The position numbers and the translations under genes were made by a program. A stretch of DNA of 37,129 bases, from positions 1 to 37,129 of the forward strand of contig JAGFZV010000025.1 in assembly GCA_017889545.1 (NCBI GenBank), in the 5' to 3' direction. Position 1 is the stretch's first letter. Each line of letters begins with the position of its first letter. This document shows positions 9,014-36,774 of this stretch, one piece after another. The DNA comes from Bacillota bacterium. Its GTDB lineage: Bacteria; Bacillota; Negativicutes; CTSoil-072. The notes below the pieces were generated by a model, which was not told where the DNA came from, did not search any database, and saw only the letters and a program-made list of their open reading frames with translations.

Positions 9014-9941
9014 TTATGCTGCTGTATGACTCCGATATCGTCTGTACTCTATCGGAGTCATACAGCTGAGCTGTTTTTGATATCGATGATTATTGTAATA
9101 CTTTATGTATTCATTGATCGCAGTTTCAAGTTCATCGTAGGAACTGAACTTATTCAAATAATACATCTCTGATTTCATCATTCCCCAGAACGCTTCCATG
9201 GGACCATTGTCTATGCATCTTGAGATCCTGGACATACTTTGTGTCATTCCGGCATCAACAAGCTTTTTATGAAAAATCTTACTCGTGTATTGAAAGCCCC
9301 TGTCACTATGAAAGAGGGGAGTTGCATCTGGATATTCTTTATGAGCCATATCAAAGGTCTTGAAAACAAGGTCATTATTGTTGGAATGACCAAGCACAAA
9401 AGCGACTATACTTTTATCTGCCAAATCCAGTATTGCGCTTAAATATGCTTTCTGGTCTGGACCATGCTTCATCTCCGTCACATCACTAAGCCATTTTTCG
9501 CCAAAGTGATCTGCTGTAAACTTTCTGTTCAGGATATTTTCAGCAGTGATTTCCGGTGTGGACTGTATATATTTTTTTCGCTTTCTGCGGCATATGGACT
9601 GAAGCTGTAAAATCTTCATTAGTCGGTAAATCCGCTTATGATTCAGAGTAAAATTGTGCTCGCGATTGAGTTTTATAGTCATTTGGCGATACCCCAAAAT
9701 ACCATTACGTTCTTGATAGGCGTCTATAATCAGGCGGGATCAATTCTTTATTTATCTGCTCATTAGCATTCTCTTTTCTGTTTAGCCATTTGTAATAAGA
9801 AGATCTTTGTATACCTGCAATTTCACAGAGTTTTTGTATTGGATAAGTTGCTATATTATGAAGTTCTCGGATTACAAGGTAAATGGGTTCATGTTTTACC
9901 TGACTCAGAATCGCCGCCTTTCTAGTTCCTCTAGCTTTTTT
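9014..9941 (-). pseudogene. IS3-family transposase OrfB (DDE integrase), frameshifted
   Basis: The intact 3' frame (9014-9697) contains the rve integrase core: LSDVTEMKHG (first Asp), HSDRGFQYTS (second Asp) and EAFWGMMKSE (Glu), ending in the usual IS3 tail NNHRYQKQLSCMTPIEYR. Upstream the homologous reading continues in another frame (VKHEPIYLVIREL, then NRKENANEQINKEL) and must shift to LIIDAYQERNGILGYRQ. The switch coincides with a G run at 9736-9738 that has one base too many. The 5' end would be reached by -1 slippage on AAAAAAG (9935-9941, minus strand) at the end of OrfA. A sequencing error is possible for a single-base change. Confidence 0.82.
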
Positions 9942-10541
9942 AGGAAATCAATCTCCATTTTCTGCCTCTTGTTCTTTGCTTCAAGAAGTTTATTCTCAGC
10001 TCTTAATTTCTCGATCTCGGACATTTCATCTAGGGTCTTTCTTTTGCCACGATTGTCTTGTAGAGCTTCTACACCATCTGCTTCGTATTTGGTTGTCCAA
10101 CTATAGACTTGCTGATAGGACACTCGATATTTTTGTGCGGTTTCCGCATAGTTATTCTGGTTTTCAATGCAATATTTAACGATTTCCACTCGCTCATCAT
10201 AGGTTGTTTTGCGGCCTTTGGTCATGATGCTTACTCCTCCCGTCCCAGAAGCTTTCAACTTTTCATGACCATTATACTTTGAAATCCAGTTGTGTAGTTG
10301 ACGGGTTGATTTAATTCCGTATTTTTTACAAAGTTCCATCTGAGAATTGGCACCTGATAGATAATCCAATACGGCTGCTTCTTTCAGCTCCGAAGGACTG
10401 ATATCTTGCTAACCACCGTTTAATGGTTGTTGTACCCACTTTCAACTGCTTTGATAGATCACTCATAGAATATTCGTACCGTAGGTACTTTTCAACCGTA
10501 TCAATGCGGTCTTCATATGAAACCGTAAATTTTCTTCCCAT
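9905..10541 (-). pseudogene. IS3-family transposase OrfA (two HTH plus leucine zipper), frameshifted
   Basis: The N-terminal half (from ATG 10541) is an HTH_28-type domain: GRKFTVSYEDRIDTVEKYL and KQLKVGTTTIKRWLARYQ. The second half is a second HTH (YRVSYQQVYSWTTKYEADG) and a coiled coil (IEKLRAENKLLEAKNKRQKM) ending at TGA 9905. The two halves lie in different frames that meet at about 10395-10411, so OrfA is broken. The slippery A AAA AAG near the 3' end is intact, and the -1 frame is open into OrfB. Confidence 0.8.
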
Positions 10542-29368: not shown

Positions 29369-29452
29369 GGACTTACTGTAGTGGATCGAGTGATACAGCA
29401 AGCCATTGCCCAAATACTAACCCCGATCTATGAGAGACAATTTTCAGCGTGA
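29369..29452 (+). pseudogene. Group II intron reverse transcriptase fragment 1
   Basis: A 27-codon stretch reads GLTVVDRVIQQAIAQILTPI then YERQFSA and stops. It matches the RT segment 'GIPTVxDRVIQQAIAQVLxPIYE' of group II intron LtrA-type proteins. No start codon or SD. It begins 24 bp after the malic enzyme stop. Confidence 0.75.
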
Positions 29453-29534: not shown

Positions 29535-29625
29535 CAAAGTCCATTTTTCGTCATTATAGGAATGCTCCTGATGGAAAACAAGTCTGGATACCAAAACCAG
29601 GGAAGCTGGAGACGGGACAAAAGCT

Positions 29626-29772
29626 GAGTTGGTGATGGAAGCAGACCTGAAGAATTTCTTTGGAAGCCTAAACCACGAATGGATGATTAAATTTATTGAA
29701 CACCGGCAGAAGATAGGACTAATAGACCTTAAGAAAACTGTCCAATTAAGTGTTGACAATCCAATAATTTAA
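29626..29772 (+). pseudogene. Group II intron reverse transcriptase fragment 2
   Basis: An open stretch reads ELVMEADLKNFFGSLNHEWM then IKFIEHRQKIG, matching the RT motif 'VVEADIKGFFDNVNHEWLMKFLEHR' that carries the first catalytic Asp. Just upstream (29585, another frame) WIPKPGKLETG resembles the RT N-terminal 'YIPKPNGK' segment. The frame ends at TAA 29770-29772. Domains X and HNH and the intron RNA domains are absent, so this is debris. Confidence 0.75.
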
Positions 29773-29794: not shown

Positions 29795-29822
29795 TTGACA
29801 AAAGAAGAAAATTCGATATAAT
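29795..29822 (+). promoter_or_regulatory. Strong sigma-A type promoter upstream of the GntR module
   Basis: TTGACA (29795-29800), 16-bp spacer, TATAAT (29817-29822): both hexamers match consensus. It reads toward the Com-like gene and the GntR gene with a leader of about 310 nt. Confidence 0.8.
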
Positions 29823-29826
29823 TAAA

Positions 29827-29855
29827 TTGTCCGTACAACCAGATGTCCGTACAAC
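29827..29855 (+). promoter_or_regulatory. Tandem putative GntR operators
   Basis: TTGTCCGTACAAC (29827-29839) and TGTCCGTACAAC (29844-29855), direct repeats 16 bp apart, each with a TTGT/TGT-N4-ACA dyad. They start 4 bp after the -10 box, covering the start site, the classic place for a repressor. The GntR/UTRA regulator encoded 500 bp downstream is the obvious candidate. Confidence 0.6.
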
Positions 29856-30142
29856 TAAATAATTTTATAAGTGAAAAAATGATCATAAAAGTACGCTGAA
29901 ATGCAACTTGCCAAACAGATATTGAGATTGTATTTTAACAATTTGAGGATAGATGACGCTCATGGTGATAAGCCCCAAAACGCGAACTCAGAAACCGATG
30001 ATTCAACAGAAGCGAACAAGGTATAATAACTGTTGCTGTATATTGAAACGAAATGGGAATTTTTCGTATTGATATAGACTGATATGGGATATCAAGAACG
30101 AATGGTATGCAAATTCCTTGCTTATGCTGAAGGAGGAAAATT
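29856..30142. other. AT-rich leader region, no gene supported
   Basis: 287 bp between the operators and the Com-like gene. A 41-codon frame (29901-30026, MQLAKQILRLYFNNLRIDDA...) has no SD and an asparagine/aspartate-rich end; I leave it uncalled. No clear riboswitch or hairpin seen. Confidence 0.35.
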
Positions 30143-30319
30143 ATGTTGACGGAATTTCGGTGTCGTGGGTGCAATAAACTCTTGGGAAAAATTAAAGGGG
30201 AAGCTGAAATCAAATGTTCCAGATGCGGCAGTCTTAATTATGTAGAGGTTTTACAGGGGTACGCGACGGTAGCGGCGGTCAAACAAGTTCAGCGTTGCAC
30301 TGTTGGCGCTACCCGATAG
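30143..30319 (+). CDS. Com-like small zinc-finger protein
   Basis: 58 residues after a strong AAGGAGG (8 nt before ATG 30143). Two Cys pairs, FRCRGCNKLL (C7, C10) and IKCSRCGSLN (C25, C28), form a treble-clef or zinc-ribbon-like site. The layout matches the Com family, named for the phage Mu protein that binds mom mRNA to activate translation; many Com-like genes lie outside phages. No other phage gene is seen nearby. It lies downstream of a consensus promoter with GntR-type operators and 51 bp before the GntR gene, so may be co-transcribed with it. Nucleic-acid binding is inferred from the family. Confidence 0.78.
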   Translation: MLTEFRCRGCNKLLGKIKGEAEIKCSRCGSLNYVEVLQGYATVAAVKQVQRCTVGATR

Positions 30320-30370
30320 TAGTTAGAAAGATTATTTTAGAATAATACTATTTTGAGGTGTATGATTTTG

Positions 30371-31099
30371 ATGAGTTTCGATAAACATGGGTCGCTGCCC
30401 TTGCATTTGCAGATCAGTAATATATTAAAAGAAGAAATATTAAAAGGGTCTTATACTGAGAAAATCCCCCCGGAGTTTCAGCTGATGGAACGGTTTGGTG
30501 TTAGCCGGTCGACTGTTCGGCAAGCGATTGCGACATTAGTAGACGATGGGGTTCTCGAAACAAGGCAAGGGATTGGGACGTTTATTGCGAACAGGCATAT
30601 TGAAGAATGGCTTGGCAATCTGAGCTCTTTTATTGAAATTACGAACGAAATGGGTATGGTTCCGAGCATAGAAGTGTTAGGACAAGGTACTGCGAGGCAC
30701 CCCAAAGAAGTGGCGGAAACACTTGGTCTGGCCCAATTTTACTATACACACCGGCTTAGATTGGCGGATGGAATCCCGATGGTCATCGAAAAACAGTATT
30801 ATCCTTTGGCAATCGGTTTGGAACTGGCAAAATATGATTTAAGCAATGTTTCGACGTATGATATTTTGGAAACAAAGATGGGGCATGTTCTATGGGATGC
30901 AAGACAGTTGATCACCTGCATCGCCCCGAATGAAGAAGAAAAAAAACTGCTGCAATTGGATGCAAAAACTTGCTGCGCAATTTTATCCGAACGGTTTGTC
31001 AATAACCAAAACGGTGAACTTTTAGAGTATGAAAGGAGTATATACCGGGCAGATATGTATGCTTTTAATATCAATTTGACTCGCAGACGCTCAATGTAG
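30371..31099 (+). CDS. GntR-family regulator with UTRA domain (HutC-type)
   Basis: 242 residues from ATG 30371; GAGGTG is about 9 nt upstream, better placed than for ATG 30362. The winged HTH (1-72) has PLHLQISNILKEEILKG and the recognition helix region FGVSRSTVRQAIATLVDDG, with the wing RQGIGTFI. The UTRA effector domain (about 90-235) has the typical FYYTHRLRLADGIPMVIEKQ and LLQLDAKTCCAILSERF. Such proteins usually repress and release on binding a pathway metabolite. Followed by a terminator and then the aminotransferase operon; candidate operators lie upstream of its own transcription unit, suggesting autoregulation as well as control of the module. Confidence 0.92.
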   Translation: MSFDKHGSLPLHLQISNILKEEILKGSYTEKIPPEFQLMERFGVSRSTVRQAIATLVDDGVLETRQGIGTFIANRHIEEWLGNLSSFIEITNEMGMVPSIEVLGQGTARHPKEVAETLGLAQFYYTHRLRLADGIPMVIEKQYYPLAIGLELAKYDLSNVSTYDILETKMGHVLWDARQLITCIAPNEEEKKLLQLDAKTCCAILSERFVNNQNGELLEYERSIYRADMYAFNINLTRRRSM

Positions 31100-31151
31100 C
31101 AGGCGAGATTGATAAATAAAATAAAAACGAATAGTACTTATTGAGCTTCTT

Positions 31152-31193
31152 GAAAGCCTGTTGCCATTTATTGGTAATGGGCTTTCTTTTTTA
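31152..31193 (+). terminator. Terminator after the GntR gene
   Basis: GAAAGCC pairs with GGCTTTC, with an inner TTGCCA/TGGTAA pairing, followed by TTTTTTAA. Confidence 0.75.
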
Positions 31194-31289: not shown

Positions 31290-32678
31290 ATGTCTGGAGC
31301 ATGTGAAACAAAAACGGTGGATGTCGACAGCTTGGTAAAGATGCAGCGAGAACACTTATGGCTTCACTTAACGAACCATAAAATGTTTGAAACGCAAGAA
31401 CCGCAAATTATGGTGGAGGCAAAAGGCCTGATCGTAAAAGATGCCAGAGGCAATGAATATTTAGATGCGCTTTCTGGCGGTGTATGGGGTGTAAGCGTTG
31501 GTTATGGCCGAGAAAGTATTGTCGATGCGGTTGCCCAACAGCTCAGAATACTGCCGTATTATGCAGGAACAGTCGCAACACCGCCCTATATTATGCTGGC
31601 TGACAAGGTTTCCAATTTACTGCCTGCTTTACCTAAAATGTATCTTTCTAACAGTGGATCAGAGGCGAATGAGAAAGCGTTTAAGATTGCCCGTCAATTT
31701 ATGCGTTCCAAATATCCCGCGAAGGATAAATTCAAAATCATCTACCGCGATCGCGACTACCATGGCACCACACTGGCCGCTCTCAGTGCAACCGGCCAAA
31801 ATGAACGCAAGGTAGGGTATGGACCGTTGTTGGAAGGGTTTGTTGGAATGCCGCATGCCCTCTGCTATCGTTGTGCGTTTGGCAAAGAATATCCTGGCTG
31901 CAATATTGACTGCGCGCAGGTATTGGAGGATGTGATCACGCGCGAAGGCGAAGACAGCGTTGCGGCAGTTATCTTAGAACCGATTACGGCCGGAGGCGGA
32001 ATCATTCCGCCGGTGAAGGAGTATTATCCAATTATCCAGGAAATATGCCGGAAACATGATGTGCTTTTAATACTGGATGAAGTGGTAAACGGGTTTGGCC
32101 GAACAGGGAAAATGTTTGGGCACCAACATTATGATGTTGATCCTGATATGGTAACTCTGGGCAAAGGATTTGCGAATTCGTATATGCCATTATCAGCTAC
32201 GGTAGCCAAACAGTATCTGTTTGACCAATTCTTGGCGCAGCCGGAAGACCTGACCGGTTATTTCCGCGACATCAGCACTTATGGCGGCTGCACGGCCGGC
32301 TGCAGTGCAGCTCTTGAAACCATACGGATTCTTGAAGCGGAAAAATTAGTAGAAAATAGCGCCGCAATGGGAGAATATTTGCTGCAAGGGTTGAAAGAAT
32401 TTGAAAAGCATCCTATGGTGGGCCAGGTTCGTGGACGCGGATTGTTCGTTGGCGTTGAGATGGTGGAAGATAAAAAAACAAAGACGCCGGCCAAAGAAAG
32501 CATTCTCGCAAAAATCGTTGGGGATGTAAAGGCTCAGGGGGTTATTATGGGGCGCATGGGGCGCAGTTTGCCGAATATGAATAATGTGTTGACATTGGCG
32601 CCGGCGTTAATCGCAACCAAAGCGGAGATCGATCAGATTGTCGGAGCAATTGGCAAGGCGTTAGGAAATCTTAAATAA
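31290..32678 (+). CDS. tpa: Class III aminotransferase, probable taurine/omega-amino acid:pyruvate aminotransferase
   Basis: 462 residues, PLP fold type I. PLP-binding Lys K292 in TLGKGFANSYMPLSA, the ring-contacting Asp in ILDEVVNGFGRTGK (D263), and phosphate-binding SNSGSEANEKAFKIAR (120-135). LDALSGGVWGVSVGYGRES and YFRDISTYGGCTAGC closely recall taurine:pyruvate aminotransferases of anaerobes such as Bilophila. A four-Cys insert (C192, C195, C204, C208 in CYRCAFGKEYPGCNIDC) could bind a metal. It would move the amino group of an omega-amino acid to pyruvate, giving an aldehyde and alanine. Neighbouring alanine dehydrogenase and aldehyde-reducing ADH fit this exactly. Beta-alanine or GABA are alternative donors. 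SD GAGGGGGAAAAG before ATG. Confidence 0.83.
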   Translation: MSGACETKTVDVDSLVKMQREHLWLHLTNHKMFETQEPQIMVEAKGLIVKDARGNEYLDALSGGVWGVSVGYGRESIVDAVAQQLRILPYYAGTVATPPYIMLADKVSNLLPALPKMYLSNSGSEANEKAFKIARQFMRSKYPAKDKFKIIYRDRDYHGTTLAALSATGQNERKVGYGPLLEGFVGMPHALCYRCAFGKEYPGCNIDCAQVLEDVITREGEDSVAAVILEPITAGGGIIPPVKEYYPIIQEICRKHDVLLILDEVVNGFGRTGKMFGHQHYDVDPDMVTLGKGFANSYMPLSATVAKQYLFDQFLAQPEDLTGYFRDISTYGGCTAGCSAALETIRILEAEKLVENSAAMGEYLLQGLKEFEKHPMVGQVRGRGLFVGVEMVEDKKTKTPAKESILAKIVGDVKAQGVIMGRMGRSLPNMNNVLTLAPALIATKAEIDQIVGAIGKALGNLK

Positions 32679-32762
32679 GAAAATCATGAAAAATGGCAGT
32701 TCAATATCCAGTGAAATGAAAAACCAATTTTGCAGTTCATTTATGTGGAAGGGGTGAATAGA

Positions 32763-33935
32763 TTGGCTACATTTTGTGTGCCGGGTCGGATTGAAACAGG
32801 CTTTGGCAGTATGAGTCAAGTCGGCGAATTATTGCAAACTCTCGGTGGAAATAATGCTTTGATTATTATGGATTCTTTTTTAGCCCAGATTGGCTTAAAC
32901 AAAAAAATTGAAACCATATTGGCAGAAGCCGGCATGGGCTTTGCTGTATACAGCGGTGTTGCCGGTGAACCAACTTCGGACCATGTCGCGGCCGGAGTGG
33001 AGATTGCGGCAAGATCCCAATGTGACTGTGTTTTGGCTGTTGGCGGCGGCAGTTCTATCGATACCGCCAAAGCGATCGCAGTGAAAATTCCAAACCCGAA
33101 TTTGGCATTTGGCGACATTGCCAAACAGCAATATTTAAAACGTCTGCCGTTGATTGCGGTGCCGACTACAGCCGGAACCGGATCGGAAGCGACCAAGGTT
33201 TCGGTCATCACAAATGCAAAGACCGGAATTAAAGAAAATCCCGGCCATCCGGCGATTGTACCTGATATTGCCGTACTGGACCCGGAACTCATGATGACTT
33301 TGCCAAGCGGACTTACTGCATTTACCGGGATGGATGCATTGACGCATGCCATGGAGGCCTATGTATCGAACAAAGCCAATAAGATGAGTGATCTCTATGC
33401 GTACGAAGCCATCAAGATGGTTGGCGGAGCGCTGGAAAAAGCGGTTGAAGGCGGTCTAAACAGAGAAGCCCGGCAGAGAATGGCAATTGCCAGCTGTTTT
33501 GCTGGAATAGCCTTCTCAAATTCTTCGACCAACTTGGCCCATGCCGGCGGCCGGGCGTTAGGCGCCTATTTCCATATTCCGCACGGTTTAAGCGTTGCGC
33601 TGCTGTTGCCGTTTGTCATGGAATTTGGTTTGGAAGCTGCGGAAGAACGCTATGCGCAAGTGGCGATCGCACTGGGCGCCAACCCGCATGACGGGCGGAA
33701 AGAACTGGCCCGAAAAGCGGTAGCGATTGTTTATGATTATAATGATCGATTTAAAGTCTGGACGGAAGCAAAAGAGAAATTTATTACCGATCTGGATGCA
33801 TTTGCGGCGGCAATCCCGGAAATGGTCAAAAATGCTTTAGCGGGCAATGGCATTCTCACCAATCCGATTGTTCCTACGGAACAAGACGTGACAGCTGTTT
33901 TCCAAAAACTCGCTAAAAAAATAGCAACGGTATAA
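32763..33935 (+). CDS. Iron-containing alcohol dehydrogenase (copy 2), possible sulfoacetaldehyde/semialdehyde reductase
   Basis: 390 residues from TTG 32763, 8 nt after AAGGGG; this matches the length of copy 1, while an ATG at 32730 adds eleven residues with no SD. NAD motif VGGGSSIDTAKAIAV; Fe ligands D191, H195, H260 and H274. The central two thirds are nearly superimposable on the enzyme at 20843-22018 (same TGIKENPGHPA, TGMDALTHAMEAYVSNKAN and LAHAGGRALG stretches). Lying between the aminotransferase and alanine dehydrogenase, it most likely reduces the aldehyde made by transamination; in Bilophila the equivalent (SarD) reduces sulfoacetaldehyde to isethionate. With a different amino donor it would make 3-hydroxypropionate or 4-hydroxybutyrate. 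Confidence 0.92.
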   Translation: MATFCVPGRIETGFGSMSQVGELLQTLGGNNALIIMDSFLAQIGLNKKIETILAEAGMGFAVYSGVAGEPTSDHVAAGVEIAARSQCDCVLAVGGGSSIDTAKAIAVKIPNPNLAFGDIAKQQYLKRLPLIAVPTTAGTGSEATKVSVITNAKTGIKENPGHPAIVPDIAVLDPELMMTLPSGLTAFTGMDALTHAMEAYVSNKANKMSDLYAYEAIKMVGGALEKAVEGGLNREARQRMAIASCFAGIAFSNSSTNLAHAGGRALGAYFHIPHGLSVALLLPFVMEFGLEAAEERYAQVAIALGANPHDGRKELARKAVAIVYDYNDRFKVWTEAKEKFITDLDAFAAAIPEMVKNALAGNGILTNPIVPTEQDVTAVFQKLAKKIATV

Positions 33936-33977: not shown

Positions 33978-35123
33978 GTGATTATTGGTGTAGCAAAAGA
34001 AATTAAAAATAACGAAAACAGAGTTGGATTAACTCCGGCCGGAACGGATGTTTTATGCAAATCCGGACATACGGTCTTGATTGAAAAAGGTGCAGGTGAG
34101 GGCAGCAGCTTTTCCGATGCCGCTTATGAGAAAGCAGGCGCAAAAATTATCGCCGATAAAAAAGAGTTATTTGATCGTTCGGAAATGATCATAAAAGTAA
34201 AAGAACCATTGGCGTCAGAATATGGACTGTTTCATCAGGGACAAATATTGTTTACCTATCTGCATTTAGCGCCGGAACCGGAACTGACGCAAGCGCTTCT
34301 GGCGAAAAAAGTTACGGGAATTGCGTATGAAACGATTGTTGGACGCAATAATACCTTGCCGTTATTATCGCCAATGAGTGAAGTGGCGGGACGGATGTCT
34401 GTGCAAATCGGCGCTCAGTTTCTGGAAAAACCATGGGGCGGAAAAGGCGTTCTTCTGGCCGGTGTTCCCGGCGTGGAGCAAGCGCAGGTAGTCATTATCG
34501 GCGGCGGAATCGTTGGGACGAATGCGGCGAAAATGGCACTGGGCATGGGGGCGCGAGTAACGGTCATTGACCGGTCGGCTGAACGGCTTGTTTATTTAGA
34601 TGATATTTTCGGTGGCAGGGTGACTACGGTAATGTCGAACAGCTATAATATAGGCAAATGGGTGCAGCAGGCTGATCTTCTGGTTGGAGCTGTTCTTATC
34701 CCGGGGGCAAAAGCGCCGAAATTGGTTACGGAAGAAATGGTACAATCAATGGAAGCCGGTTCCGTAATTGTCGACGTAGCGATTGACCAGGGCGGATCGG
34801 TTGAGACGATTGACCGGGTTACGACGCATAGTGATCCAACCTATGTTAAACATGGCGTGGTTCATTATTCTGTAGCCAATATGCCGGGGGCGGTCGCGCA
34901 AACTTCGACGATGGCGCTGACGAATTCCACCTTGCCATATGCATTGGCAATTGCCAATAAAGGCTGGCGAAATGCTCTGATCGAGGATGCTGGATTGGCA
35001 AAAGGACTGAATGTGTGTGACGGCAAGCTGACATTTAAAGCAGTGGCTGATGATCAGAACCTTCCATACACCCCTGTGGAAGAAATGCTTCATGTGAAAG
35101 AGGCGTGCCGGAAAGCAGTCTAA
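33978..35123 (+). CDS. ald: Alanine dehydrogenase
   Basis: 381 residues, slightly longer than the usual 371-378. Pyruvate-binding R15 (NENRVGLTP), K75 (IKVKEP) and catalytic H96 ([10 protein letters not shown]); Rossmann motif [21 protein letters not shown]270-region motif [11 protein letters not shown]; and [14 protein letters not shown]. It oxidises alanine to pyruvate, ammonium and NADH. Beside an alanine-producing aminotransferase it recycles pyruvate as amino acceptor and supplies NADH for the adjacent alcohol dehydrogenase. Located 42 bp after that gene; SD AAGGGGG. Confidence 0.96.
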
Positions 35124-35334: not shown

Positions 35335-36774
35335 ATGAATCAACAGGAGATTGCGAAAGGCATTGAACGCGATGGTTTGCAGCCTGGGCTGAAACCGCGC
35401 CATATACAAATGATTGCACTAGGCGGAGTCATAGGAGCCGGATTGTTTGTTGGGGCGTCTGTTGTCGTTAAAAATGCCGGTCCGGCTGCCATTATTTCTT
35501 TTTTAATTACCGGAATCCTTATTGTTCTTGTGATGCGAATGTTGGGTGAGTTGGCATCATCGATGCCTGCTACAGGTTCGTTTTATGAGTATGCCCGCCA
35601 GGCTTGCAACGAAAATGTGGTATTATCAAAAATCGCAGGATTTACTACCGGCTGGTCCTATTGGTATTTTTGGTGCATGGTCGTAACGTTTGAAACGCTG
35701 GCGGCGGCCAAACTGGTTCACTATTGGTATCCGGATCTTCCCGGCTGGATGATCAGCGTAGTGTTTTTGGCGTTAATGACATTAACGAACTTATACTCAG
35801 TCAAATCTTTCGGTGAATTTGAGTTTTGGTTTGCATCCATTAAAGTTGCGGCCATTTGCGTGTTCTTGCTTTTTGGCACTCTTTATATGCTGGGAATGTG
35901 GCCGAGCCATGCGTTTAGCGGACTGAATATCATGCTTTCCAACGGTGGATTTGCTCCTAATGGATGGGGTCCTGTCCTTGCAGGCGCTGTAGCGGCCACC
36001 GGTTTTTACTGCGGAGCAGAACTTTGTACGATAGCCGCAGCGGAAACGGCAGATCCTGTTAAATCGGTGGCGAAAGCGACGAGTTCCGTTATCAGCCGGG
36101 TATTGCTGTTCTATGTCGGTTCGATTTTCTTTGTGGTATGTATTGTCCCCTGGAACTCAGAAGCGATTTCTTTTCCGTATGTTAGCGCATTAACGATTAT
36201 GAAAGTGCCATATGCTCCGGATATTATGAATGCTGTTATTTTAGTTGCGGTCTTATCCTGTCTGAATTCCGGCATATACGCTACTTCACGAATGCTGTTT
36301 GCGCTGACGCGGCATGGTGACGCTCCTAAATTTGTGGCAAAGCTTTCAAAAAACGGCGTACCAAGGAATGCCGTTTTGCTTAGTACGGTAATCGCGTGGT
36401 TGGCAACGGTGGCTTCCATTATGAACGACGATATTATGACTTTTTTAGTGGAATCATACGGTACAGCAGCAATTTTTGTATATGTCTGCATCGCGTTTTC
36501 GCAAATCAAATTGCGTAATCGCATGGAACGTGAAGATCCAAGCAAGATCCGTGTAAAGATGTGGGGCTTTCCATATCTTAGTTATGTGACGATAGCGGGA
36601 ATGCTGATTATTATGCTTTCCATGGCTTTTATTCCTTCTCAACAGATGGCTTTCTGGTTTGGCATGGCTGCCATTGGAACCATTGTTATTTGTGGTGCAT
36701 TGCGTGTTTTTTTCGGCCAGCAGGAAACTGTCAGAATCAATATCGATGAGGTCGAAGCAAAGACTAACCACTAG
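35335..36774 (+). CDS. APC-superfamily amino-acid permease (AAT/GabP-like)
   Basis: 479 residues, 12 predicted membrane helices. The N-terminal family signature is clear: LKPRHIQMIALGGVIGAGLF followed by VGASVVVKNAGPAAIISF. SSMPATGSFYEYARQA and the AAAETADPVKSVAKAT loop between helices 6 and 7 are typical of the AAT family (AroP, LysP, GabP, ProY). It imports an amino acid with H+. In this operon the natural cargo is the aminotransferase substrate, an omega-amino acid such as GABA, beta-alanine or taurine, though alanine export or uptake is possible. It lies 211 bp after ald with its own SD (AAGGGGG), so it may have a separate promoter. Confidence 0.88.
   Translation: MNQQEIAKGIERDGLQPGLKPRHIQMIALGGVIGAGLFVGASVVVKNAGPAAIISFLITGILIVLVMRMLGELASSMPATGSFYEYARQACNENVVLSKIAGFTTGWSYWYFWCMVVTFETLAAAKLVHYWYPDLPGWMISVVFLALMTLTNLYSVKSFGEFEFWFASIKVAAICVFLLFGTLYMLGMWPSHAFSGLNIMLSNGGFAPNGWGPVLAGAVAATGFYCGAELCTIAAAETADPVKSVAKATSSVISRVLLFYVGSIFFVVCIVPWNSEAISFPYVSALTIMKVPYAPDIMNAVILVAVLSCLNSGIYATSRMLFALTRHGDAPKFVAKLSKNGVPRNAVLLSTVIAWLATVASIMNDDIMTFLVESYGTAAIFVYVCIAFSQIKLRNRMEREDPSKIRVKMWGFPYLSYVTIAGMLIIMLSMAFIPSQQMAFWFGMAAIGTIVICGALRVFFGQQETVRINIDEVEAKTNH

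Follow-up and report, generated by a model that had tools for sequence, protein, structure and literature searches.

Why is a small zinc protein of phage type encoded directly ahead of a metabolic regulator, and what could it act on? The question arises from a 37,129-nucleotide stretch of a Bacillota bacterium of the class Negativicutes (GCA_017889545.1, contig JAGFZV010000025.1), which is referred to below, at its full length, as the window. An earlier note on this DNA had singled out a Com-like gene between GntR-type operators and a GntR gene, and left open whether it acts on RNA or is a phage residue.

The com gene and its neighborhood

The features of the locus are given below; names of the operon genes follow the best NCBIfam matches.

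29795–29822, + strand: sigma-70 type promoter TTGACA-16-TATAAT, a 12/12 match in the promoter scan
29827–29839 and 29843–29855, + strand: two tandem TTGTCCGTACAAC-like sites resembling GntR-type operators, immediately past the -10 (mismatches counted against the first site: 0 and 1)
30130–30136, + strand: com Shine-Dalgarno sequence AAGGAGG, with the ATG six bases further on
30143–30319, + strand: com, an open reading frame for a 58-residue CxxC/CxxC zinc ribbon (Pfam, PHROG, genome-wide profile search), proposed RNA-binding antiterminator
30371–31099, + strand: gntR (GntR and UTRA domains by Pfam), behind com; candidate starts at 30353, 30362 or 30371
31143–31158, + strand: Com-type RNA hairpin GA-GCUU-CUUGA-AAGC-C, proposed antiterminator (pattern scans, fold, form of the SELEX motif)
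31152–31192, + strand: predicted intrinsic terminator with a 15-pair stem and a T run, between gntR and the aminotransferase operon, its 5' arm overlapped by the Com-type hairpin
31290–32678, + strand: aminotransferase, the first gene past the terminator (best NCBIfam match PRK07678, slightly under its cut-off)
32730–33935, + strand: iron-containing alcohol dehydrogenase (NCBIfam; no equivalog cut-off reached)
33978–35123, + strand: alanine dehydrogenase (TIGR00518, over cut-off), alone among the operon genes in passing an NCBIfam cut-off
35335–36774, + strand: amino-acid permease, GABA-permease-like (NCBIfam, under cut-off)

The protein is what the earlier note took it for: its reading frame, its strong Shine-Dalgarno sequence and its Pfam match (Zn_ribbon_Com, PF10122; E 4.3e-8, 32.9 bits against a curated cut-off of 22.9) agree, and PHROG 6417, 'translational regulator', is matched at E 1.8e-8. 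It is the sole PF10122 match (E 0.001) in the 3.27-Mb source genome (G000), which is 96% complete. The cysteine pairs are C7xxC10 and C25xxC28, and R6, C7, C10, L14, C25 and C28 are invariant in an alignment of 29 Com sequences. The AlphaFold model exhibits four strands, with a pLDDT of about 90 at residues 1–30 and a low-confidence tail. A Foldseek search of this model against the PDB gave nothing better than E 0.86; hence, the label of zinc ribbon reflects the sequence and the four-stranded model. By sequence, no convincing relative of solved structure was found (best E 0.037). The protein is free-standing, with neither a second domain nor a sensor domain, and no CAT, PRD or ANTAR domain is present among its Pfam matches.

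The nearest sequence relatives of the 30-residue Com core, 72–74% identical, are encoded by viral contigs and Paenibacillus genomes; therefore, a phage ancestry of the gene is still likely. No phage gene is evident among the window ORFs read by eye, in line with the earlier remark that no prophage surrounds com. The nearest mobile DNA noticed is a transposase-like ORF pair on the minus strand (9014–10369, by eye). Upstream of com, two short frames (29369–29449 and 29572–29769) resemble, by eye, remnants of a group II intron reverse transcriptase. Neither has a Pfam match, and an origin of the hairpin element described below from two such suspected fragments was rejected. Directly behind com there is neither mom nor a methylase gene: gntR comes next. 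A role via mom-like modification was rejected, as no methylase is encoded beside com.

The position of com between operator-like sites (29827–29855) and a gene for a GntR-UTRA protein was recognized before and agrees with the domain matches. These sites are probably bound by GntR, which would thereby control com-gntR. As for their statistics, the promoter scan of the window is hardly above shuffles (14 vs. 11.3), with 29795–29822 as its only 12/12 site, and the TTGTCCGTACAAC-type motif, at three mismatches, shows no enrichment there (11 vs. 7.8 expected).

A Com-type hairpin across a predicted terminator

The RNA preference of one Com protein has been measured. SELEX with the zinc finger of Haemophilus sputorum Com selected NGAGNNCC(N)2-3GAGNNCCNN, a hairpin with a crucial GA in the loop, and the pair closing the selected loop was invariably C-G; the Mu mom site starts with GAAUGCCUGCGAGCAUC and has the form GA-AUGC-C-UGC-GA-GCAU-C (PMC6483171, as far as its text was available). 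In the same available text, the Com function tested is translational activation of Mu mom via this hairpin (PMC6483171); binding of Com to the hairpin rather than to a duplex is disputed.

Between gntR and the aminotransferase gene, the window carries an element of this form; its spacer is two bases long, and its loop is closed by U-A instead of C-G. The measured motif comes from a single Com, that of H. sputorum, which is distant from the window protein. The stem is GCUU/AAGC and the loop is CUUGA. The likeness to the Mu pair thus extends from the protein (PF10122, small, CxxC/CxxC, disordered tail) to the form of the target, GA-N4-C-N(2-3)-GA-N4-C. Judged by the match to the measured motif, the window Com would bind the hairpin at 31143–31158, in which case the label 'orphan' given to it by the earlier note does not fit. 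The difference lies in the context: Mu Com activates the translation of mom, whereas the window target overlaps a terminator, with no mom or methylase gene behind it.

The terminator reads GAAAGCCUGUUGCC..GGUAAUGGGCUUUC-UUUUUU, and its 5' arm is the second half of the 16-mer that forms the Com-type hairpin. The hairpin and the T run are clear in the DNA, and transcription would be expected to end there. RNAfold gives -1.9 kcal/mol for the Com-type hairpin and -22.7 kcal/mol for the complete element folded as terminator. In a series of growing RNA prefixes, the small hairpin is predicted in every prefix tested up to 36 nt and is lost at 40. The hallmark of antitermination, a hairpin excluding an overlapping terminator, is thus visible here in the overlap and in the predicted switch of fold.

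Each of the two hairpin-plus-terminator scans, flanks-only and pairing-plus-fold, hits this element and no other on the two strands of the window. Chance occurrence was gauged on 10 Mb of Markov shuffles, which gave 45 flanks-only hits, one of them with all four stem pairs, and on 400 kb of DNA from genomes in which Com was not matched, which gave two hits in the flanks-only scan and three in the pairing-plus-fold scan. A known riboswitch or leader was rejected as an explanation: only tRNA exceeds its Rfam gathering score in the window, and L10_leader, which scores best of the leader families in the vicinity of the element, reaches 26 bits (E 0.13), below its gathering score of 44. Likewise, no leader of Rfam 15 matches in twelve related loci at E 1.

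In the BglG/SacY/LicT family, marked by a CAT RNA-binding domain and PRDs, the protein holds a small RAT hairpin in the leader of a catabolic operon, and this hairpin is incompatible with the intrinsic terminator that it overlaps. The arrangement proposed here is the same in principle. However, the protein is unrelated: Com has no CAT, PRD or sensor domain, and its target is shorter. Regulators of the ANTAR type recognize two ANTAR hairpins. Their RNA-binding output domain, in EutV for example, acts by antitermination (PMC3369931, from the part of the text available), as is proposed for Com, but Com lacks an ANTAR domain and its target is a single hairpin with the loop C-N2-3-GA.

Com and its element in other genomes and phages

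Com profile A1, built from 14 Com sequences, finds a match in 28 of the 380 class genomes. The best scores belong to a genome of another family, G090 (82.2 bits), and to the source genome (81.4 bits), with the next at 43.8; as both were rows of the profile, their high scores follow in part from its construction. The Pfam search gives them 41.5 and 31.7 bits, respectively, where the matches range from 21 to 41 bits. The two proteins are 37% identical, and both lack an 'FRG'-like stretch common to the other short Com proteins of the class (by eye). The G090 locus likewise has com followed by a GntR-UTRA gene and a catabolic operon (genes of the operon named by eye). A repeat, GTATACACTGTATATA, occurs there twice, ahead of com and in the gap that separates gntR from the gene behind it. 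Compared by eye, the two loci have a common 16-mer, GAGCTTCTTGAAAGCC, heading a T-tailed hairpin. The pattern of this 16-mer with its 3' arm occurs once in the source genome (31143) and twice in G090, at 66471 before com and at 69062 ahead of a transporter-like gene; neither genome has a further match. Among 379 class genomes, the exact element is confined to these two, plus a match without T run in G053. The same 16-mer is also present in viral contigs L206 and L214. A second Com type of the class (CNRLLFRG) is paired with a GAGAGCC-NN-GAGCTCC element; an RNA scan of viral contigs for this type gave nothing.

At E 1e-8 or better, Com is encoded by 13 of 398 sampled genomes of the phylum. Most of the loci fetched from these 13 have com between a sigma-54-type activator and a thiolase/CoA-transferase/acyl-CoA operon (by eye; Pfam detects the sigma-54 activator domain in L097 only). 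Here the element takes the form GAGAGCC-NNN-GAGCCCC..GGGG, and 10 of the 12 Com genomes other than the source genome contain this 17-base pattern, with 23 matches in all, against one when it is read backwards. In viral contigs, the stems include GACC/GGCC, GCGC/GCGC and GCGT/ACGC, among others. The count of Com-like genes and neighbors proposed in the earlier note thus finds them not confined to Mu-like prophages: in this phylum, they also occur beside catabolic and iron-uptake genes (names mostly by eye).

Several arrangements were met along the way. Three loci (L097, L098, L101) carry two tandem com genes with an element behind each, flanked by a sigma-54 activator and a thiolase gene, possibly a two-step cascade. 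Three genomes (L114, L125, L131) have elements away from com, before cobalamin-adenosyltransferase-like (cobO-like) genes (by eye), possible targets in trans. An Aeromonas phage Com, unannotated in its record, immediately precedes a DNA methylase gene (L155, 1441–2629), an arrangement like that of Mu. Finally, in relatives within the class of the window, the Com ribbon is fused N-terminally to Peripla_BP_2 in L017 (1453–2502) and L056 (3719–4657), both by Pfam, and similar frames were recognized by eye in L055 and L074. These fusions have no evident signal peptide and a Com-type element in their leader, with ABC-transporter and TonB-like genes nearby (by eye); a ligand-sensing antiterminator is possible.

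The linkage of gene and element was counted over 80 distinct Com sequences. Related sequences among these are not independent, and the set takes in three members from loci of Gram-negative phages as well as several weak or partial matches (one each in L082 and L085, two each in L083 and L053). For 66 of the 80, an element lies no more than 1.5 kb away on the same strand, against 8 of 80 in reversed DNA; some of the 66 (stems TGAT/AACA, AAGC/ATTT) are possibly due to chance. By group, the numbers are 33 of 41 for the class of the window, 16 of 18 for other genomes of the phylum, 13 of 16 for viruses and phages and 4 of 5 for genome-contig hits. On the opposite strand, an element accompanies 22 of 80, mostly at loci with Com on both strands; with the eight loci of this kind left out, the counts are 50 of 64 (same strand) and 6 of 64 (opposite strand). 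For the remaining 14 sequences, among them all three Com matches of L154 and L155, two loci of Gram-negative phages, no element was found in this range; most genome loci span 1.5 kb from Com, and farther elements are missed, such as the one about 1.9 kb behind Com in L059.

Stem pairing was assessed in a way that avoids circularity. When only the flanks and the terminator were required, the loci gave 56 hits against one in reversed DNA, and 54 of the 56 have at least three of the four stem pairs. Over 16 distinct stem combinations, the mean is 3.5 pairs, versus 2.5 with shuffled partners (maximum 3.06 in 2000). One stem position is unpaired in 23 of the 56 elements, 19 of which are GAGC/GCCC. 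A looser fold-energy scan gave 85 distinct candidates against 11 in reversed DNA.

The search was also run from the RNA side, where G511 and the viral scans are the prospective parts. R1, a covariance model of 58 elements trained on Com loci, matches (E 0.01) in 27 of 398 genomes: 12 of the 13 Com genomes and 15 of the 385 others (Fisher p 8e-15, with two phylum samples of 398 genomes, requested alike, taken as identical), a recovery that is partly circular because of the training set. G511, found by R1 and outside the E 1e-8 list, has a Com gene just upstream of the element. In G714 and G531 (loci L166 and L168), good-looking elements precede integrase-like genes (by eye), with no Com within 1.5 kb; L168 also has further GAGCGCC or GAGCCCC repeats. 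The weaker R1 matches looked at mostly read as plain terminators (by eye).

In viral contigs, the GAGAGCC/GAGCCCC pattern was found on eight contigs, and three types have a Com gene ending 16 to 258 bp upstream: L147; L048 with L152; and L150, whose sisters L148, L149 and L153 appear similar and were not scored singly. The phage gene 16 bp before its element was missed by the regular expression and found by the profile; on the GC-rich contig L151, the profile detects no Com. The window-type element was matched 51 times, on 49 contigs. Of these matches, 26 have a Com gene (profile E 0.01) no more than 1.5 kb upstream and on the same strand, one of them (L244) on the contig of L044, met before, and none has one on the opposite strand; by distinct element, the count is 24 of 42. 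The distance from Com start to element is 103–722 nt, with a median of 170. The profile finds no Com near the other 25, and if any small CxxC-CxxC frame is also counted, a Com-like gene is present at 30 of 51. For the viral GAGCGCC-type pattern (L257–L306), 50 matches were obtained, with Com near 7 and none recognizable near 43. Changing both GA to GT reduces the 50 to one; hence, the loop GA seems to be under selection even where no Com is seen. At such sites, Com may have diverged too far or be encoded in another part of the phage, or the hairpin may be read by a different protein.

A proposed antitermination switch and its alternatives

Taken as sequence evidence, these observations make it quite probable that Com provides the trans-acting component of a protein-dependent antitermination switch at the boundary between gntR and the aminotransferase gene. 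A single promoter gated by GntR would yield a com-gntR RNA that by default stops at the terminator (31152–31192). The nascent RNA would first form the small hairpin, using the 5' arm of the terminator. Bound by Com, this hairpin would withhold the arm, and the polymerase would continue into the genes for the aminotransferase, the alcohol dehydrogenase, the alanine dehydrogenase and the permease. GntR would thus set the supply of Com, and Com the passage of the polymerase: expression of the operon would require derepression by GntR as well as a sufficient level of Com. The same module, with different compensating stems, would serve for the Com of phages and for Com genes that follow sigma-54 activators or adjoin iron-uptake-like genes.

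Antitermination is the outcome of Com binding that we infer, and Com could also bind the hairpin to another effect: stabilized termination, protection or destabilization of the RNA, or translation of the next gene, as with Mu mom. This would agree with the sole tested function found, the translational one (in the available part of PMC6483171), and with L102, where a Com-type motif precedes GGAGG with no terminator accepted by the scan. However, at 56 places the second half of the motif doubles as the 5' arm of a hairpin with a T tail, which is the geometry of an antiterminator, and in the window the aminotransferase starts some 100 nt past the element, which speaks against an action on its translation. 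We regard such another effect as rather unlikely. The RNA-level role that the earlier note thought conceivable is accordingly favored by a feature it had not seen, the Com-type hairpin over the terminator (31143–31191), in the form of antitermination and not of translational action.

The viral and Paenibacillus affinities of the Com core would also fit a leftover phage gene, with the terminator as the ordinary end of the com-gntR transcript. Yet the frame is open behind a strong Shine-Dalgarno sequence, the motif heading the terminator matches the measured Com target, and G090, in another family, retains com before its GntR gene together with two copies of the element; for the gene to be such a residue is very improbable. 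Naville and Gautheret described mobile attenuators, leader terminators that may derive from the ends of insertion sequences or prophages and were exapted (PMC2965389, in its available part). The window element could likewise stem from mobile DNA, as part of a unit carrying com and with no regulatory link to it: com is present in viral contigs and the element is usually near it. Against this, stem and loop sequences vary with compensation, the G090 copies precede two different genes, and copies stand far from com before the cobO-like genes of three genomes; moreover, the window element differs from those attenuators in having a cognate RNA-binding protein encoded alongside. An unlinked mobile origin is thus given hardly any credence.

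The full-text literature search, with most subscription journals outside its reach, turned up no account in which Com was recognized in antitermination. The available part of PMC2965389 yielded no Com-element sequence or gene terms, and terminators and antitermination are unmentioned in that of PMC4324140. The switch proposed for the window may belong to a wider picture, for which we see the case as evenly balanced: Com of Firmicutes and phages would be a widespread, undescribed class of RNA-hairpin antiterminators, in which free-standing Com gates catabolic operons under GntR or sigma-54 control and phage structural genes, the Com-PBP fusion, apparently cytoplasmic, senses a ligand for iron or haem uptake, and Mu mom is a special, translational case of an older use.

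For a family that Pfam still names 'Mu-like prophage protein Com', the finding suggests a function, with the RNA target predicted to the base. If true, 58 residues would suffice for an antiterminator, acting on a class of leader RNA without a Rfam 15 match in the loci given. One mechanism would link phages and anaerobic catabolic operons, and the Com-PBP proteins may offer a ready-made ligand-sensing, RNA-binding fusion. It would also explain why a protein of phage type has been kept next to a metabolic regulator.
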